From: Methanocalculaceae archaeon
GTDB taxonomy: Archaea > Halobacteriota > Methanomicrobia > Methanomicrobiales > Methanocorpusculaceae
Reading direction: 5' to 3'
Assembly: GCA_031262705.1 (NCBI GenBank)
Contig: JAISHD010000075.1
Coordinates: forward strand, 1-40,405
Length of the DNA: 40,405 bases
Positions 3,191 through 40,405 of this stretch are shown one piece after another (position 1 is the stretch's first letter; each line of letters begins with the position of its first letter). Made by a program: the position numbers and the translations under genes. A model generated the notes under the pieces. That model had not been told where the DNA came from and ran no database searches. It saw only the letters and a program-made list of their open reading frames with translations.

Positions 3191-5205
3191 TCACTCTCTC
3201 CGCAACAAAAACACCCCTGCCGCAATACATCCTGCAAGAATACCTGCAAGCGGAACAGGGGCTGCGGGCGTGGTCGGCGTCCCGCCGCCGGACGACGAAA
3301 TATCTCCGCCTGAGGACACCGTTACCTCTTCATCAATCAGATTGCTCTCCACCACAAGCCAGGAAAGCTGTTCTGCGGGGAACTCCTCATACCACAGATT
3401 TTTCAGGGGATCCTCCCCGAACATGAACGGGGTTCCCGCAACCGGTGTGATCATATCCTCCTCTTCGTTATAGACCAGCAGATCCGGCACAAACACATCG
3501 CCGGGCAGCAGATCCGTAGTATCCCACAGCTGCAGACTCACCAGACCGGTTGCTTCGTCCCGCAGAACTGCAGCCACCTGCATACGGAGAACATCCCATA
3601 CTGCCGGATCAAGTATTATGGTTATCATCGACTCATGAGTGTCTTCCACGCCATCTGCCACCCGCGTCAGATTACCTTCAATTGAGTAAATTTCCCGCAG
3701 TCCCCCATCTTCATACATCGTTCCCGCATACTTCATGCTGATCAGCACATCCTCTCCGCCATCGTTGAACACAAACCATTTTCCGTCCCATTCGCAAGGG
3801 TAATACCTGCCGGTCGGCACCATCTTCCATATGCCGTCGTCCGATTCGTTATAGATTTTCTCCAGCGGTCGTTCTCCGATCACAATATCAGATCCGTTCA
3901 CGGTGTAGAGATACCCCGCAGTCGTCTCGGTGATACCGGAGTCGTCATGTTCCTCCCCACCGCCTTCCTCATCAGGTGTCTGCGTCGCTCCGGCTTCTGC
4001 GGCTTCTGCAACCACAGAGACGTAGGTGGTGTAAAAATCATGCCAGCCTCCGCTGTCCAGCGACACCGCCTCTCCCAGTACCTCATTTCCCGGAATGGTG
4101 GAGTAGTAGAGGTAGGGGAAGGAGGTTACGGCAATGCCTCTGGCGGAGGAGGATTGGCCGTTGTCTGTGGCGGCAATAACCGCTGTGTCAACTGCCGTCA
4201 TCAGATCTCCTGCGGCGGTATGCAGTTCTCCGTCCACAGTATTCGCATAGATGTTTTCGGCAAACTGCCACAGATCAATGGAGACAGGAGTATCAGAACT
4301 GCTGCCGTCACCAAATACCTGGGTTTTGTGGTAGGCATCACTGATTGCCGGGAGAGTGTTGGCAGAAGACAGCGCATCTTCAAGAGCTGCACCAAAGGTG
4401 TTCAGCGCAGCCACCACTCCCGGAACCTTCGCCGACTCAATCAGCGCATAGGTACTTACATCTTCATTCCGGGCAGTTCCGATGATCTGTTCCCCGAGTT
4501 CTTTGGGAGAGATTGCCGGATACTCAGACAGCACCCGGCCAAGTTCCGTGTAGTTCACCGCGCTTCTGTCAACGACCTGCTCAGCGGCGATCAGGTAGCC
4601 GGCATGATCCTTGAGGACACTGAATGCTTCCACCGTACCCATAAGGCAGGAGTACATGACGATCATGTCATAATTCCTGCCCAAAAGACCTTTATCCATA
4701 TCCGGCAGCGACAGCATTCTATTGGTTACGGTGTTCATTCCGTATCCGGTTGCTCCGCCTCCATGATCCAGAAAGATGAGATATGTGTTCTCCCCGTCAA
4801 GGTTTGTGCTGTGCTGATAGGTTTCTGCAGAGGCGAGCGCTTTCTGCACGCCGTCAGGTGTGGAGATGTCTGCATCAATCCGTTCCAGAACTTCGGCATC
4901 CTCACTCACGTTTCCATTGTGGGTTGTCAGATCATCATGCAAAAGCGATACGTTGGTTATGGTGATGCCATTGTCCCAGCCGCTTTTCTTGGATCCGCCG
5001 TAGATGATCAGCATCTCGCCTGCGTCCGAGTTCCAGCCGGATGTCATGTCCTGCATGAGATCAGACATCTCCCCATGCTCGGATTCAAGATCAGCTCCGA
5101 CAATGTAGATGATGAGATAATTCTTCGCGGTACCGCTTTCCGTTCCGGCAGCCGCCGCGGTGCGATGCAGGCCGCAACCAGCAGCAGTACAAGAACAGCA
5201 GACAT
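3191..5205 (-). pseudogene. Clostripain-family (C11) cysteine peptidase, surface lipoprotein/membrane-anchored; reading frame broken in the signal-peptide region
   Basis: Main ORF 3191..5068 has YLIFLDHGGGATGYGMN and DMIVMYSCLMGTVE (His/Cys region) and the C-terminal TM segment VPLAGILAGCIAAGVFLLRRE. The signal sequence MSAVLVLLLVAACIA lies in another frame (ATG at 5205), and the intervening in-frame sequence reads TAAAAGTESGTAKNYLIIYIVGADLESEHGEMSDL. Confidence 0.75.
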
Positions 5206-5335: not shown

Positions 5336-6277
5336 TTATTCCAGTGTTCCAAGCCGGTCGCCGATCGCCAGATAATGCCCGTTCATCAGCTCAAACCCCG
5401 GCATCTCCCGTTTTCCCTCCGGTTTTGCCGACAGAATACACACCGCCCCCGCTCCCGTCATCACAACCGGCCCCTTCTTCTTTATCACATCCACCACCTC
5501 GCCCGGCAGCCCTGAATACCCTTCGGGCACCCGCTCACTCCTGTAAATCAGCAACCGCTTCCCGTCCGGCAGCCGTGTATTCGCACATGGTACTGGAGAC
5601 AGTCCCCGGATGCGGTTATGCACAACTACTGCCGGAAGACTCCAGTCGATCACACACTCCTCCTTCGTAATCGACGGAGCAAACGTCACCTGTTCCGGGT
5701 CCTGCGGAACTGCACACACACCGCCGCAGTCAATCTGATCCAGTGCCTCCATGAGTGTTTCGGCACCGAGAACTGCCAGTCGGTCGTGCAGCTCCCCGAA
5801 CGTCTCATCCTCTCCAACATCCAGCGAACGTGAAAGAATCACATCGCCTGCGTCCAGTTCCGGCGTAATATACATAATCGACACTCCTGCTTCCGCATCA
5901 CCGTTCAGTACTGAGTACTGCATCGGTGCTGCACCGCGATAACGGGGCAGCAGCGACCCGTGAATATTGATCGTCCGGTGCTTCGGCAGATTGATGATCC
6001 CGTCCGGAATCATCATCCCGAACGCCACCACCACGCCGACGTCCGGCGCAAGAGCCGCGAGTTTCTCCGTGAGGGCGGGATCCTTCATCGACTCCGGCTG
6101 AAAGACCGGGACCTCATGTGCCAGTGCCCATTCCTTCACCGGCGAAAACGCAATCTTGTTTCCCCGCCGGTTCGGCTTGTCCACCCGTGTCACCACACCC
6201 ACGATCTCATGACGGGTCGCAACCGCCTCCAGTGCCGGAACTGCATAGGCGGGCGTTCCCATAAACAGGACCTTCAT
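5336..6277 (-). CDS. fmt: Methionyl-tRNA formyltransferase
   Basis: 313 aa; MKVLFMGTPAYAVPALEAV, NIHGSLLPRYRGAAPMQYSVLNGD, DAGDVI. Confidence 0.93.
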   Translation of the reverse strand: MKVLFMGTPAYAVPALEAVATRHEIVGVVTRVDKPNRRGNKIAFSPVKEWALAHEVPVFQPESMKDPALTEKLAALAPDVGVVVAFGMMIPDGIINLPKHRTINIHGSLLPRYRGAAPMQYSVLNGDAEAGVSIMYITPELDAGDVILSRSLDVGEDETFGELHDRLAVLGAETLMEALDQIDCGGVCAVPQDPEQVTFAPSITKEECVIDWSLPAVVVHNRIRGLSPVPCANTRLPDGKRLLIYRSERVPEGYSGLPGEVVDVIKKKGPVVMTGAGAVCILSAKPEGKREMPGFELMNGHYLAIGDRLGTLE

Positions 6278-6780
6278 TTCGTCTCCTCACGAAGAGCCGC
6301 TGACGCCGCCAGCCGTTCCAGATCGCGGGAGACCAGTTTGCGGGCAATCGGGGTGATACGATCAACGAAGAGCACCCCGTCAAGGTGATCGAACTCATGC
6401 TGGAATACCCGTGCGGGGTAATCCTTCAAATCCTCCTCGACCGTTTCGCCCGCCTCGTTCTGATACCGCACCACAATTCGTTTCGGTCGCCGGACTTTCT
6501 TGTGAATGCCCGGAACCGAAAGACATCCCTCCTCCATCTCCACGGTGGAGTTGCCGGTGGAGATAATCTCGGGATTAATGACTTTGCGGACTTTATCGCC
6601 TGCATCCATGACAAAAAACCGTTGGGATACGCCGATCTGCGGGGCGGCGAGGCCGACGCCCCGGCTGTTCCGCATGCACGGCACCATTTCGTCCAGCAGA
6701 CTGCACAGCTCGGGAGTGATGGACTCAACCGGCGCGGCAGTGTCTGCGAGGATTTTTTCTCCGTAAATATAGACCCGCAT
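6274..6780 (-). CDS. def: Peptide deformylase
   Basis: 168 aa; the three PDF motifs GVGLAAPQIG, EEGCLSVPG and FQHEFDHLDGVLF; overlaps fmt by 4 bp. Confidence 0.95.
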   Translation of the reverse strand: MRVYIYGEKILADTAAPVESITPELCSLLDEMVPCMRNSRGVGLAAPQIGVSQRFFVMDAGDKVRKVINPEIISTGNSTVEMEEGCLSVPGIHKKVRRPKRIVVRYQNEAGETVEEDLKDYPARVFQHEFDHLDGVLFVDRITPIARKLVSRDLERLAASAALREETK

Positions 6781-7051
6781 AATGAGGTATTATTTGTGCG
6801 GCAGACTACATCAACTCTGCGCAATTTCCCGATAATCAGGAAAAATAGGAGATTTATTATCTGTCAGGCCTTTGTAGCAGGCAGGGGTGCCCGCCTCGAA
6901 GAAGGTGGTACGTATCAACCAACAAAAATATACATTCATCGTCTTCAACGACGTATAGTATAGGTCCGGGTTCTTGCCCGTATCCCGTCCGCCAGCATTG
7001 ACGCGGACACAGTCACTGATCCCCCGATTCACCCTCCACTCAGGTGATACT

Positions 7052-8740
7052 ATGACAAAAAGTGAACTCCCCATTCCCCCAAATACCGAGTCCGGCCTTG
7101 ACCTCGCCGGATTTTTGACCCCGATTGAACCAGCACCGGCCAATGCGGCCGCTCCCCCCTCCGGCCCGCAGCATTTTCCGGCGGTGTTTTTTGTACATGA
7201 GAAGATTACGGATTCTGTGCAGCAGGTGCATCTCGCCCTCGCCCGGCTCAATGCGGCCTCGCCGCGTGGTCCGGTTATTTTCCGGCAGGACGGCCGTCTT
7301 GTCCGTGTCATCCGAACCGAAGACAACGCCTACGCCGTCGTCCCGCTGGACAGGAACCGTCTGCGGCTGGCGCTTTCCGAGGCAGGAACCTGGAAACGGT
7401 TCCTAAAAGAGGATATCACCGAGCCGGATAATGCTCTGCTGGATGCAGCGGTTGCAGCCCCTCCCGAGCGCTACCGGCTGATTCCGGTACTTGCGGGCCT
7501 CCACTCCGGCGCACTGCTTCGTCCTGACGGGACGGTGGCATGCACGGCAGGGTTTGATGCGGCGACGGGATTTTTCCTGACCGGGTCGTTTGCACTTCCT
7601 CCGGTACCGGAACATCCGACCGGAGAGGACGTCAGGTTTGTCCGCGAGATGTTTGCGGACATTTTCAATGAGTTTCTGTTTGCGGCAGAGACAGATCGGG
7701 AGAATGCGGTTGCCGCACTGATGACGGCGATTCTCCGCCCGACACTTGCAGGACCGGTACCGATCTGGGCGATTGATAAGAATACGCCGCGTGCGGGCGG
7801 TACGCTGCTTGCTCTGGTGACGGGTGCTCTTGCGTACGGGGAGCTTCCGCTGATGTATGCGGCGAGCCGCAGGCGTGATGAGATGGAGAAGGTGGTACGC
7901 ATGGCACTACGGGAGCAGGGCCGGTTTGTGCTGCTGGATAATGTTGCGCCGGGTGCGGACTGGACTCCGGAGGTGCTGCTGTCGGCGACTTCAGGATCGG
8001 GACGGGTGCTGTCCCGGAATATGGGGACGTTCTCGTCGTTTGCGAGTAAATCTCCGGCATTTTTTGTGGTGAACGGTGTGCATCTGGATATTCGGGCGGA
8101 TGTGACGGGCCGGATGTTTCTGGTGCGGCTGTCTGAGCCGAAGGCATGGCAGGAGATGCGGTTCCGCCGGACGAAGACGGAGCTGCTGGAGCTGGCAACG
8201 GCGATGCATCCACAGGCGGTGTGGGGTGCGGCGGTGCTGCTGCGGTTCTGGCACGATGCGGGTGAGCCTGCGTTCCAGCTCGCGTCCGGGAATCTGTCGG
8301 AGTTTCCGGAGTGGCTGCGTGTGGTGGGCGGCACGCTTTCCTACGCGGGCTGGACAGAGGTTCTGGCAAATCAGGGCGAGATGCAGACGGAGGAGAATGC
8401 GGCGGATGCGGAGGGGGCAGAGCTGGTGGCGGCGCTTCATGTGGTGTTTGGGGAGGAGCGGTTTTCGGCAAAGGCTCTGCTGAAGGTTCTGATTACGGAA
8501 GGGACAGCCCGGAAACGTGGTGAGGGGGTTGACGGGCTGCTGAATTATGCGGATGAAGGGATGATCCGATCAGCGGTGGCAGGTACGCTGTCTTCGGTGA
8601 AGGTGGGGATGTGGCTGAAGGGGTTTGTAGGGACGCGGTTTGCAGGGGCGGAGTGGTATGTGGATAGGTCTGCGGTGCGGACGGGGAATGTCTGGCAGTA
8701 TGTTCTCCGTCCGGTGGAGAGTCAGGCTACCCTCAGCTAA
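7052..8740 (+). CDS. Replication-type/primase-associated AAA-like ATPase (mobile-element derived?), degenerate P-loop
   Basis: Start ATG 7052 with upstream AGGTGATAC. Core PIWAIDKNTPRAGGTLLALVTGALAYGE (Walker A position), RFVLLDNV (Walker B position) and FFVVNGVHLDIRADVTGRMFLVRL (sensor-like), resembling phage/plasmid primase-helicase cores. Confidence 0.45.
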   Translation: MTKSELPIPPNTESGLDLAGFLTPIEPAPANAAAPPSGPQHFPAVFFVHEKITDSVQQVHLALARLNAASPRGPVIFRQDGRLVRVIRTEDNAYAVVPLDRNRLRLALSEAGTWKRFLKEDITEPDNALLDAAVAAPPERYRLIPVLAGLHSGALLRPDGTVACTAGFDAATGFFLTGSFALPPVPEHPTGEDVRFVREMFADIFNEFLFAAETDRENAVAALMTAILRPTLAGPVPIWAIDKNTPRAGGTLLALVTGALAYGELPLMYAASRRRDEMEKVVRMALREQGRFVLLDNVAPGADWTPEVLLSATSGSGRVLSRNMGTFSSFASKSPAFFVVNGVHLDIRADVTGRMFLVRLSEPKAWQEMRFRRTKTELLELATAMHPQAVWGAAVLLRFWHDAGEPAFQLASGNLSEFPEWLRVVGGTLSYAGWTEVLANQGEMQTEENAADAEGAELVAALHVVFGEERFSAKALLKVLITEGTARKRGEGVDGLLNYADEGMIRSAVAGTLSSVKVGMWLKGFVGTRFAGAEWYVDRSAVRTGNVWQYVLRPVESQATLS

Positions 8741-28808: not shown

Positions 28809-30209
28809 ATGAGTGGTATTGCCGGCATCGTTGATTCTCGCAGTGTCGCCTACCCCCTATATTACGCCCTGCACGCACTCCAGCACAGAGGCCAGGAGGC
28901 TGCAGGAATATCTACTTTTCACGAGAAGACTCTGGTAACCCACAAGGGTCCCGGTCAGCTTGCCGAAGTTTTTAATGAACAGATTTTATCCAAACTATCA
29001 GGCACGGTCGGTATCGGACAGGTGCTCTATACGCAAAAGGCGCACCGCGGCAGAATGGAAAACATTCAGCCGCTGAAGTTCTCGTGTCAGGGCCATGAGC
29101 TGTCCATTACGGTAAGCGTTGCACTAGTGCAGGACAACCGTGAGTCTCTTCGTGCAGAGTATGAGGGGAAAGGGCACATCTTTTCAACGACCACAAACGC
29201 AGAGCTGATTGCGGCGATGATCGCCCATGAGCTCATATCCGGGGCAGACGCAGAAAATGCATTTGTCAATGCAATTAAGCGGCTGAAAGGAGCATACGCA
29301 GGTGTTGCAATTCTGGACGGAGTGTTGTATGCGTTCCGTGATCCGCTGGGAACAAAACCGCTGTGTATGGGAGAACTTGATACCGGCTACATTGTGGCAT
29401 CGGAAAGTGTCGCAATTGATACGCTGTCGGGAACATTCCTCCGCGACATCACGCCGGGCGAACTGGTTATCATCACCGGGGATGGTGTGTCCAGCCGCCA
29501 GGTACTGACCGCGGATCACAAAGCGTACTGCGTGTTTGAGTATGTCTATACTGCACGGCCCGACTCGGTTATCGACGAGGTTCTGGTGTATGACGCACGC
29601 CGGAGAATCGGCGAGCGGCTGGCAAAACATCCGGTCAAGGCCGATCTTGTCTCGCCGGTGCCGGACTCAGGCACGACGTTTGCAACGGGTTTTGCAGACG
29701 CGTCCGGCATTCCGTACATGGAAGGACTCCTGAAGAACCGGTACGTCGGCAGAACCTTCATCATGCCCGCCCAGAATCTGCGGGAGAACGCGGTGAGGAT
29801 GAAATTGAATCCGGTGCGCCGCCACATCAGCGGCAAGTCCGTTGTCCTTGTGGACGACAGCATTGTCCGCGGTACGACCTCGCTCCATATTGTAGACATG
29901 GTGCGCGAGTTCGGTGCGGCCGAGGTCCACATGCGGATCGGTTCAACACCGATTGTTGCTCCCTGCTACTTCGGGGTGGACCTGCCAACCCGTGAGGAGT
30001 TGATAGCAAACGGCAGATCGGTTGAGGAGATTCGCGAGATGATCCATGCAACAAGCCTTGAGTACATCTCAACCGATGATCTTGTGGAGTCGGTCGGTAT
30101 CCCCCGCGAGGATCTGTGCATGGCCTGTTCCTGCGGCGCATACCCGCTGGACATCCCGAACGAGTCATGCTGTGCATGCCGCAGTATAACCCCGGCGAAA
30201 GAAAAATAA
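28809..30209 (+). CDS. Amidophosphoribosyltransferase-like protein with degenerate glutaminase domain
   Basis: PRTase motif SVVLVDDSIVRGTT and LQHRGQEAAGIST, but N-terminus MSGIAGI instead of MCGI and loss of the HNGN and SDTE motifs. Confidence 0.92.
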   Translation: MSGIAGIVDSRSVAYPLYYALHALQHRGQEAAGISTFHEKTLVTHKGPGQLAEVFNEQILSKLSGTVGIGQVLYTQKAHRGRMENIQPLKFSCQGHELSITVSVALVQDNRESLRAEYEGKGHIFSTTTNAELIAAMIAHELISGADAENAFVNAIKRLKGAYAGVAILDGVLYAFRDPLGTKPLCMGELDTGYIVASESVAIDTLSGTFLRDITPGELVIITGDGVSSRQVLTADHKAYCVFEYVYTARPDSVIDEVLVYDARRRIGERLAKHPVKADLVSPVPDSGTTFATGFADASGIPYMEGLLKNRYVGRTFIMPAQNLRENAVRMKLNPVRRHISGKSVVLVDDSIVRGTTSLHIVDMVREFGAAEVHMRIGSTPIVAPCYFGVDLPTREELIANGRSVEEIREMIHATSLEYISTDDLVESVGIPREDLCMACSCGAYPLDIPNESCCACRSITPAKEK

Positions 30210-39264: not shown

Positions 39265-40405
39265 TTACAACTCAGGATTTTTGTACGGATCGATCATCTC
39301 AATGCCATGAGATTCCTCTTCCTCACCGTCGATTGCAATCGGGTACTTTCCAGTCAGGCATCCGGTACAGAGATGACTGCACGGAATGCCGATAGCCTCA
39401 ACCAACCCTTCAAGAGAGATGTGAGCAAGACTTGTTGCCTCGATTGCTTCCCGGACCTCCGCAACGGATTTGTGATAGGAGATCAATTCCTCACGCGTCG
39501 GAAAGTCGGTACCCAGATAGCACGGCGCAATAATCGGCGGGGACGCCACGCGGAGATGCACCTCATTTGCACCGAACTCGCGAACCAGTGCGATGCTGCG
39601 GCGCGAGGTCGTGCCTCGGACGATACTGTCGTCCACCAGCACTACGGATTTTCCGGTGATGTGGCCGCGAACCGGATTGAGTTTCATTCGAACAGCCATC
39701 TCCCGTTTTGCCTGCGTCGGCATGATAAAGGTACGACCGGTGTAGCGGTTCTTGATCAGTGCTTCACGGAACGGGATGCCCGATGCTGCCGCATAGCCGG
39801 TGGCAGCGGCAGTGCCGGAGTCAGGAACCGGTGAGACGATGTCAGCCTTGACAGGCGATTCACCTGCGAGAAGGAGACCGGTCTTCTGACGGACATCATA
39901 CACTGAGATACCATCGATCACCGAGTCCGCGCGGGCAAAGTAGATGTACTCAAACACACAGTGGGCAGGAGACTGCGCCGTCATGATCTGCCGCCAGTAC
40001 ACAATGTCTGCTTTGAGGCGGATGCTCTCCCCCGGAGCAACGTCGCGGAGAAGTTTTGCACCGACAGCGTCAAGAGCCACACTTTCAGATGCAACAATGT
40101 GCCCCCCATCTGCAAACTCCCCGAGGCAGAGCGGCTTGATGCCGAGCGGGTCACGGAATGCATACAATACGCCGTCCAGCATGAAGATGACCGCATACGA
40201 TCCACGAATGCTCCGCATGCAGAAGCTGATGGCTTCACCGACAGTGTGACCGTGAATGATCTCGTTTGCAAGAATTGCGGCGATCACTTCAGTGTCAGAG
40301 GTGGTGGAAAAGATGTGGCCCCGGCCTTCATACTCGTAGCGCAGCTCATCGGTGTTGACCAGATTTCCATTGTGGACGATGGAGAGCGAGTGGCCACGGA
40401 ACAGA
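39265..40405 (-). CDS. purF: Amidophosphoribosyltransferase (N-terminus outside window)
   Basis: Frame open to the window edge: SIVHNGNLVNTDELRYEYEGRGHIFSTTSDTEVIAAIL; SVVLVDDSIVRGTTSRRSIALVREFG. Confidence 0.94.
   Translation of the reverse strand, partial: LFRGHSLSIVHNGNLVNTDELRYEYEGRGHIFSTTSDTEVIAAILANEIIHGHTVGEAISFCMRSIRGSYAVIFMLDGVLYAFRDPLGIKPLCLGEFADGGHIVASESVALDAVGAKLLRDVAPGESIRLKADIVYWRQIMTAQSPAHCVFEYIYFARADSVIDGISVYDVRQKTGLLLAGESPVKADIVSPVPDSGTAAATGYAAASGIPFREALIKNRYTGRTFIMPTQAKREMAVRMKLNPVRGHITGKSVVLVDDSIVRGTTSRRSIALVREFGANEVHLRVASPPIIAPCYLGTDFPTREELISYHKSVAEVREAIEATSLAHISLEGLVEAIGIPCSHLCTGCLTGKYPIAIDGEEEESHGIEMIDPYKNPEL

Follow-up and report, generated by a model that had tools for sequence, protein, structure and literature searches.

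A bacterial-type def-fmt gene pair and a remodelled second deformylase in Methanocorpusculum predict a formyl-methionine cycle in an archaeon

Archaeal translation normally initiates with unformylated Met-tRNAi carried on aIF2 (PMC7531240, PMC13234167), and a review states flatly that archaea have no methionyl-tRNA formyltransferase (Fmt) and that their proteins begin with methionine left unmodified (PMC13234167). It has been suggested that e/aIF2 may have made formylation unnecessary (PMC7531240). The closest described relatives of the genes considered here are the bacterial def-fmt operon, which couples Fmt to a peptide deformylase (PDF), and the yeast cytosol, where a bacterial-type Fmt, either E. 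coli Fmt expressed in yeast or Fmt1 held back there under stress, meets an initiator tRNA of the aIF2/eIF2 type (PMC13234167). Bacteria commonly have a second deformylase in addition to that of the operon, and some of these are weak or inactive (PMC12690207), and the type 3 PDFs of archaea and trypanosomatids bear substitutions in the conserved motifs (PMC5591237, PMC12690207). Here we describe a def-fmt pair in Methanocorpusculum, a genus of methanogens that live in the gut. The window, meaning the whole stretch of DNA that was analysed, is an archaeal contig of 40,405 nucleotides.

The archaeal pair resembles the bacterial operon in gene order, linkage, catalytic motifs and domain architecture, with 38-46% identity between the Fmts (Table 1). 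The stop codon of def and the start codon of fmt overlap by 4 bp, the ATGA being common to both (ACGAAATGAAGG); this overlap and the completeness of the motifs had been pointed out in the initial annotation, and the coordinates, the ATGA and every quoted motif were found again. Fmt matches the curated equivalog model TIGR00460 over its full length (residues 1-302; 272 bits, cut-off 201.5), a domain search identifies both Formyl_trans_N and Formyl_trans_C, and its best sequence matches among solved structures are Fmts. For Def1 the scores are 148 bits with TIGR00079 (cut-off 103.95) and 166 bits with NF001159 (cut-off 125), and the closest solved structure by sequence match is a bacterial PDF, 1lme (E 2.5e-45). 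Its EGCLS motif is shared by every archaeal def1 and by nearly every bacterial def in the comparison, and HE[FY]DH is kept in every archaeal def1 aligned. The initial annotation had proposed a check of the Fmt C-terminal domain, the Asn/His/Asp residues and the tRNA-binding loop, and all are conserved: Arg38, the counterpart of E. coli Arg42, is invariant across the 32 Fmts aligned and in every archaeal Fmt, and the SLLP motif aligns with 1fmt and is likewise conserved. The AlphaFold model of Fmt (pLDDT 94.8) superposes on 2fmt, the tRNA complex of E. coli Fmt, with a TM score of 0.92, and fits solved Fmts better than it fits ArnA or hydrolase relatives.

Table 1. Positions of the def-fmt genes and their functional elements in the window, with the second deformylase of the same genome
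Feature	Position	Strand	Basis or note
fmt, methionyl-tRNA formyltransferase, 313 aa	5336-6277	-	TIGR00460 and predicted structure
Fmt C-terminal tRNA-binding domain (Formyl_trans_C)	5375..5671	-	PF02911, E 3.7e-20, residues 203-301
Fmt catalytic Asp142 (E. coli Asp144)	5852..5854	-	alignment, conservation
Fmt catalytic Asn104-Ile-His106 (E. coli Asn106/His108)	5960..5968	-	alignment, conservation
Fmt insertion (tRNA) loop TRVDKPNRRGNK, including Arg38 (E. coli Arg42)	6155..6190	-	alignment to 1fmt
def1, canonical peptide deformylase, 168 aa	6274-6780	-	NF001159, TIGR00079, Pfam PF01327
Def1 motif III QHEFDH, two His metal ligands and catalytic Glu	6385..6402	-	sequence
Def1 motif II EGCLS, Cys metal ligand	6517..6531	-	sequence
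Def1 motif I GVGLAAPQ	6637..6660	-	sequence; invariant across genus alignment
Def2, second deformylase	G000:C81:19790-20284 (locus L002 1468-1980)		window genome, separate contig

All 12 near-complete Methanocorpusculum genomes (at least 90% completeness, taken from the genus genomes among 41 relatives) carry fmt, def1 and a second deformylase gene, def2. Pairwise dN/dS within the genus is about 0.09 for fmt, 0.11 for def1 and 0.12 for def2, and all three genes are under strong purifying selection. Given the presence of fmt and def1 in every one of these genomes and their dN/dS of about 0.09-0.11, the two reading frames are not chance. Next to def, on the opposite strand, lies a 588-aa open reading frame with no Pfam or NCBIfam match (window 6974-8740, +), and downstream of fmt is a clostripain-family (C11) protein with a hydrophobic, anchor-like C-terminal tail (window 3191-5068, -).

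Beyond the genus the genes are rare. Among the 41 relatives, 16 genomes belong to other families of the order, and in these neither PDF nor Fmt exceeded the cut-off. A survey of 232 Methanomicrobiales genomes gave Fmt over the cut-off in 24, comprising 23 Methanocorpusculum and one Methanomicrobium mobile, and none in the sister genus of the same family. The M. mobile genome, G462, was assigned through its hits, whose coordinates coincide with those in G543, where the named M. mobile locus L115 lies. Among 394 genomes of the phylum, PDFs were found in 13, nine of them Methanocorpusculum and four (G217, G280, G306 and G146) with type-3-like motifs in which SC.S or SC.C replaces EGCLS (loci L033, L034, L035 (f9) and, for G146, L036); G146 had no Fmt in the order survey. 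Two further Fmt-like proteins, full-length or partial and from other Methanomicrobiales, fell below the cut-off, at G283:C1:1850044-1850892 (167 bits) and G030:C1:1246666-1247373 (112 bits), and the latter scores equally well against the ArnA model. That the pair might belong to a widespread, already characterised archaeal family acting on another substrate had been raised as a possible refutation; with Fmt in 24 of 232 genomes and its clade lying among bacterial Met-tRNA formyltransferases, this was rejected within Methanomicrobiales. In the collection of papers that was searched, none connects Methanocorpusculum and deformylase.

The trees of both proteins that the initial annotation called for bear out a bacterial ancestry. 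The archaeal Fmts fall into a single clade (100/100) nested among bacterial Fmts of the Clostridia type, to which they are up to 46% identical, in a tree whose bacterial members were picked for similarity to the query and whose forks neighbouring the archaeal clade have 51/67 support and long branches. Def1 and Def2 come out as sisters (100/100) in a tree where the bacterial deformylases are the fmt-linked ones, so that a closer bacterial relative of Def2 could lie outside it. A single archaeal Fmt clade together with sister Def1 and Def2 clades indicates that def-fmt was acquired once from bacteria and that def was then duplicated, Def2 being most simply a duplicate that arose after the acquisition. 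The donor was most likely an anaerobic, Clostridia-type bacterium.

M. mobile, an isolate from the rumen, carries def, fmt and the second deformylase in the neighbourhood of its mtr and mcr operons, the gene names there being read from translated sequences. Its Fmt is 65% identical (tblastn). With mtrH about 1 kb upstream, the pair sits just behind the tRNA-Val and tRNA-Glu genes, where the mtr operon ends, and is followed by mtr genes and mcrA (L245 6752-10495 and L246); Def2 (L196 1498-1998) is on the far side, adjoining mcrB. A position beside tRNA genes fits an integrated element and makes this a possible integration site. M. mobile is nested inside Methanocorpusculum in careful trees of Fmt, Def1 and Def2, and for Fmt a separate position is compatible with the data in the AU test (p 0.40). 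This nesting suggests transfer from Methanocorpusculum to M. mobile, and the three-gene set was probably passed on in that direction.

Def2 is encoded apart from def-fmt in each near-complete genome of the genus, about 23 kb from def1 in the single-contig genome G015, and is divergent at the positions that define the family. In all 13 copies compared, that of M. mobile included, motif II reads EGSPC instead of EGCLS, and motif III reads HEKDHH (HEMDHH in one copy) rather than HEFDHL; none of these 13 copies retains the cysteine ligand of EGCLS. In an ungapped alignment this residue is replaced by serine and a new cysteine appears two residues further on. Scored as a deformylase, Def2 falls just under the cut-offs, with 98.4 against 103.95 for TIGR00079 and 120.5 against 125 for NF001159. 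In the Salmonella PDF, Cys90 is needed for activity (PMC7683392). With altered motifs and yet a dN/dS of about 0.12, Def2 is a conserved protein whose metal site has been remodelled. It is probably not an ordinary deformylase, and we predict that it is weak, differently metallated or a binder. A plasmid or viral source was considered and rejected, since plasmids gave nothing closer than a 40% identical match from Legionella and viral contigs gave no match. Def2 recalls the type 3 PDFs in its motif substitutions, but it differs from them in being accompanied by a wholly canonical Def1 with which, and not with other archaeal PDFs, it groups (100/100), and we therefore regard it as a local duplicate and not as a type 3 archaeal PDF. 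Unlike the accessory deformylases of bacteria, it has the changes from EGCLS to EGSPC and from HEFDH to HEKDHH fixed throughout the genus and in M. mobile, and as a diverged second deformylase it sets the archaeal genes apart from the bacterial def-fmt operon.

Recognition by Fmt depends on G2-C71, C3-G70, G4-C69 and A73 of the tRNA and on Arg42 of the enzyme (review, PMC13234167). The Methanocorpusculum initiator tRNA has A1:U72, G2:C71, C3:G70, G4:C69 and A73. Of the 48 tRNAs of G015 no other has the full set, in a table where a few non-initiator tRNAs are registered one base off; the other tRNAs with a CAT anticodon begin with G1:C72, and one Gln tRNA matches the set except at 4:69. Whereas the bacterial initiator has a C1xA72 mismatch, a bacterial-like mismatch at 1:72 was looked for in the archaeal initiator and not found, and the idea of an adapted initiator tRNA was rejected. 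Relatives that have no Fmt show the same acceptor stem at the determinant positions, which gives no hint of co-adaptation; the archaeal initiator already has the determinants, and an imported Fmt would thus meet a ready substrate. The yeast initiator likewise has G2:C71, C3:G70, G4:C69 and A73, and E. coli Fmt expressed in yeast formylates it in vivo, up to about 70% (PMC13234167). We predict a parallel in Methanocorpusculum, with the difference that formylation in yeast is artificial or stress-induced and occurs without a deformylase, while the archaeal Fmt is natively encoded with a matching one.

A source of formyl groups can also be traced. Formate-tetrahydrofolate (THF) ligase was found in 12/12 near-complete genomes of the genus and FolD over its cut-off in 0/12, and the other families show the reverse (FolD 16/16, ligase 0/16), as do M. 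mobile and the sister genus (five genomes tested), with FolD present and the ligase absent. Compared with the other Methanomicrobiales sampled, Methanocorpusculum has thus lost FolD and gained the ligase; no ligase was detected in the window genome, which is 79% complete. With the ligase replacing FolD, a formyl-donor route is present in the genus. PurN of Methanomicrobiales is folate-dependent, and formyl-methanopterin is not considered a formyl donor for purine synthesis (PMC3261824). As the ligase also serves PurN/PurH, donor supply is shown rather than a dedicated link to Fmt, and its value as Fmt-specific support is further weakened by M. mobile, which has Fmt without the ligase.

Several other accounts of these genes have to be weighed. 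The source assembly is a fragmented bin of 1.34 Mb, 79% complete, in which the window is contig C77, and this speaks for an artefact in which assembly or binning placed a bacterial contig in an archaeal bin; contig chimerism had been named at the outset as something that would undo the finding. Such an artefact can be set aside as vanishingly improbable. The pair recurs within the single-contig genus genomes G015 and G017 (1.80 Mb, at 1,804,962 bp, and 1.76 Mb) and on a contig of the isolate M. mobile near mtrH, def-fmt has a GC3 of 0.66-0.68 where neighbouring genes have 0.59-0.69, with GC likewise matching, and the window contig bears NifH-like and nitrogenase-component-like genes of the type that methanogens use for F430; contamination and chimerism were rejected on these grounds. 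The contig also encodes two PurF-like proteins (28809-30209, +; 39265-40287, -); M. labreanum was alone among the Euryarchaeota studied in having two PurF, in one of which Ser takes the place of the active-site Cys (PMC3261824).

Another account gives Fmt a different function. The Fmt superfamily includes sugar N-formyltransferases and methanogens are rich in formyl chemistry, and the genes of M. mobile adjoin the mtr and mcr operons, all of which would suit an enzyme repurposed for another amine, such as a nucleotide sugar, a methanofuran-type cofactor or a small peptide, Def then serving as its partner amidase. The initial annotation had listed a repurposed formyltransferase among its options, and the profile scores disfavour it as a sugar enzyme: the Fmt equivalog is passed, and the protein is well under the cut-offs for PRK06988 (143 against 316), ArnA (140 against 777) and dTDP-sugar (33 against 238) models, as it is for PurN (61, cut-off 150) and PurU (29, cut-off 286). 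It has also retained the whole C-terminal tRNA-binding domain and the loop arginine, its top structural matches are Fmts, and its neighbours vary among genomes with no biosynthetic cluster nearby. We consider such repurposing improbable. Somewhat less so, though still unlikely, is that Fmt acts on Met-tRNAi only weakly or conditionally, under stress or in a particular growth phase, with formylation a minor or regulatory mark, a role already proposed for it in the yeast cytosol, and Def1 and Def2 serving mainly as clean-up enzymes or readers. Formyl-methionine is dispensable for archaeal initiation, the initiator tRNA is without co-adaptation, two deformylases are kept of which one has an altered metal site, and formylation in yeast is stress-linked and tolerated (PMC13234167); against this, the conserved operon and the strong purifying selection on three genes present in all near-complete genomes suggest routine use.

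Among the options first listed, a horizontally acquired formyl-Met cycle fits best, given the bacterial-type clade and the restricted distribution, the cycle itself being predicted. We place the probability of a working cycle of this kind, grafted onto archaeal initiation, at about 0.74; enzyme activity, formylation in vivo and physiological use are what we infer from the sequences. According to this model, an ancestor of Methanocorpusculum would have taken up a bacterial def-fmt operon, an early duplication of def would have produced Def2, and the three-gene set would later have reached M. mobile. Fmt would move the formyl group from 10-formyl-tetrahydrofolate to methionine on the ordinary archaeal initiator tRNA, which is suited to it by the identity pairs of its acceptor stem and a weak A1:U72 pair. 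Initiation driven by aIF2/aIF5B would then give proteins, whether a part or all of them, an fMet start, and deformylation by Def1 would open them to methionine aminopeptidase. A more far-reaching proposal, that fMet initiation is routine on archaeal ribosomes and that Def2 has ceased to be an enzyme and reads or regulates formylated N-termini without hydrolysing them, is one we put forward tentatively and regard as rather doubtful.

Finding def-fmt in Methanocorpusculum and M. mobile contradicts the blanket view that Fmt is missing from archaea (PMC13234167). If fMet initiation is routine in them, these organisms would be naturally occurring hybrids, with aIF2-type initiation from the archaeal side and formylation of the bacterial kind. 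A genus in which the two meet lets one ask, in a natural setting, whether formylation can coexist with aIF2-type initiation, is redundant to it or improves it. A working cycle would also mean that these methanogens could be susceptible to actinonin and other deformylase inhibitors, and that the formyl-peptides of the gut need not all be of bacterial or mitochondrial origin.
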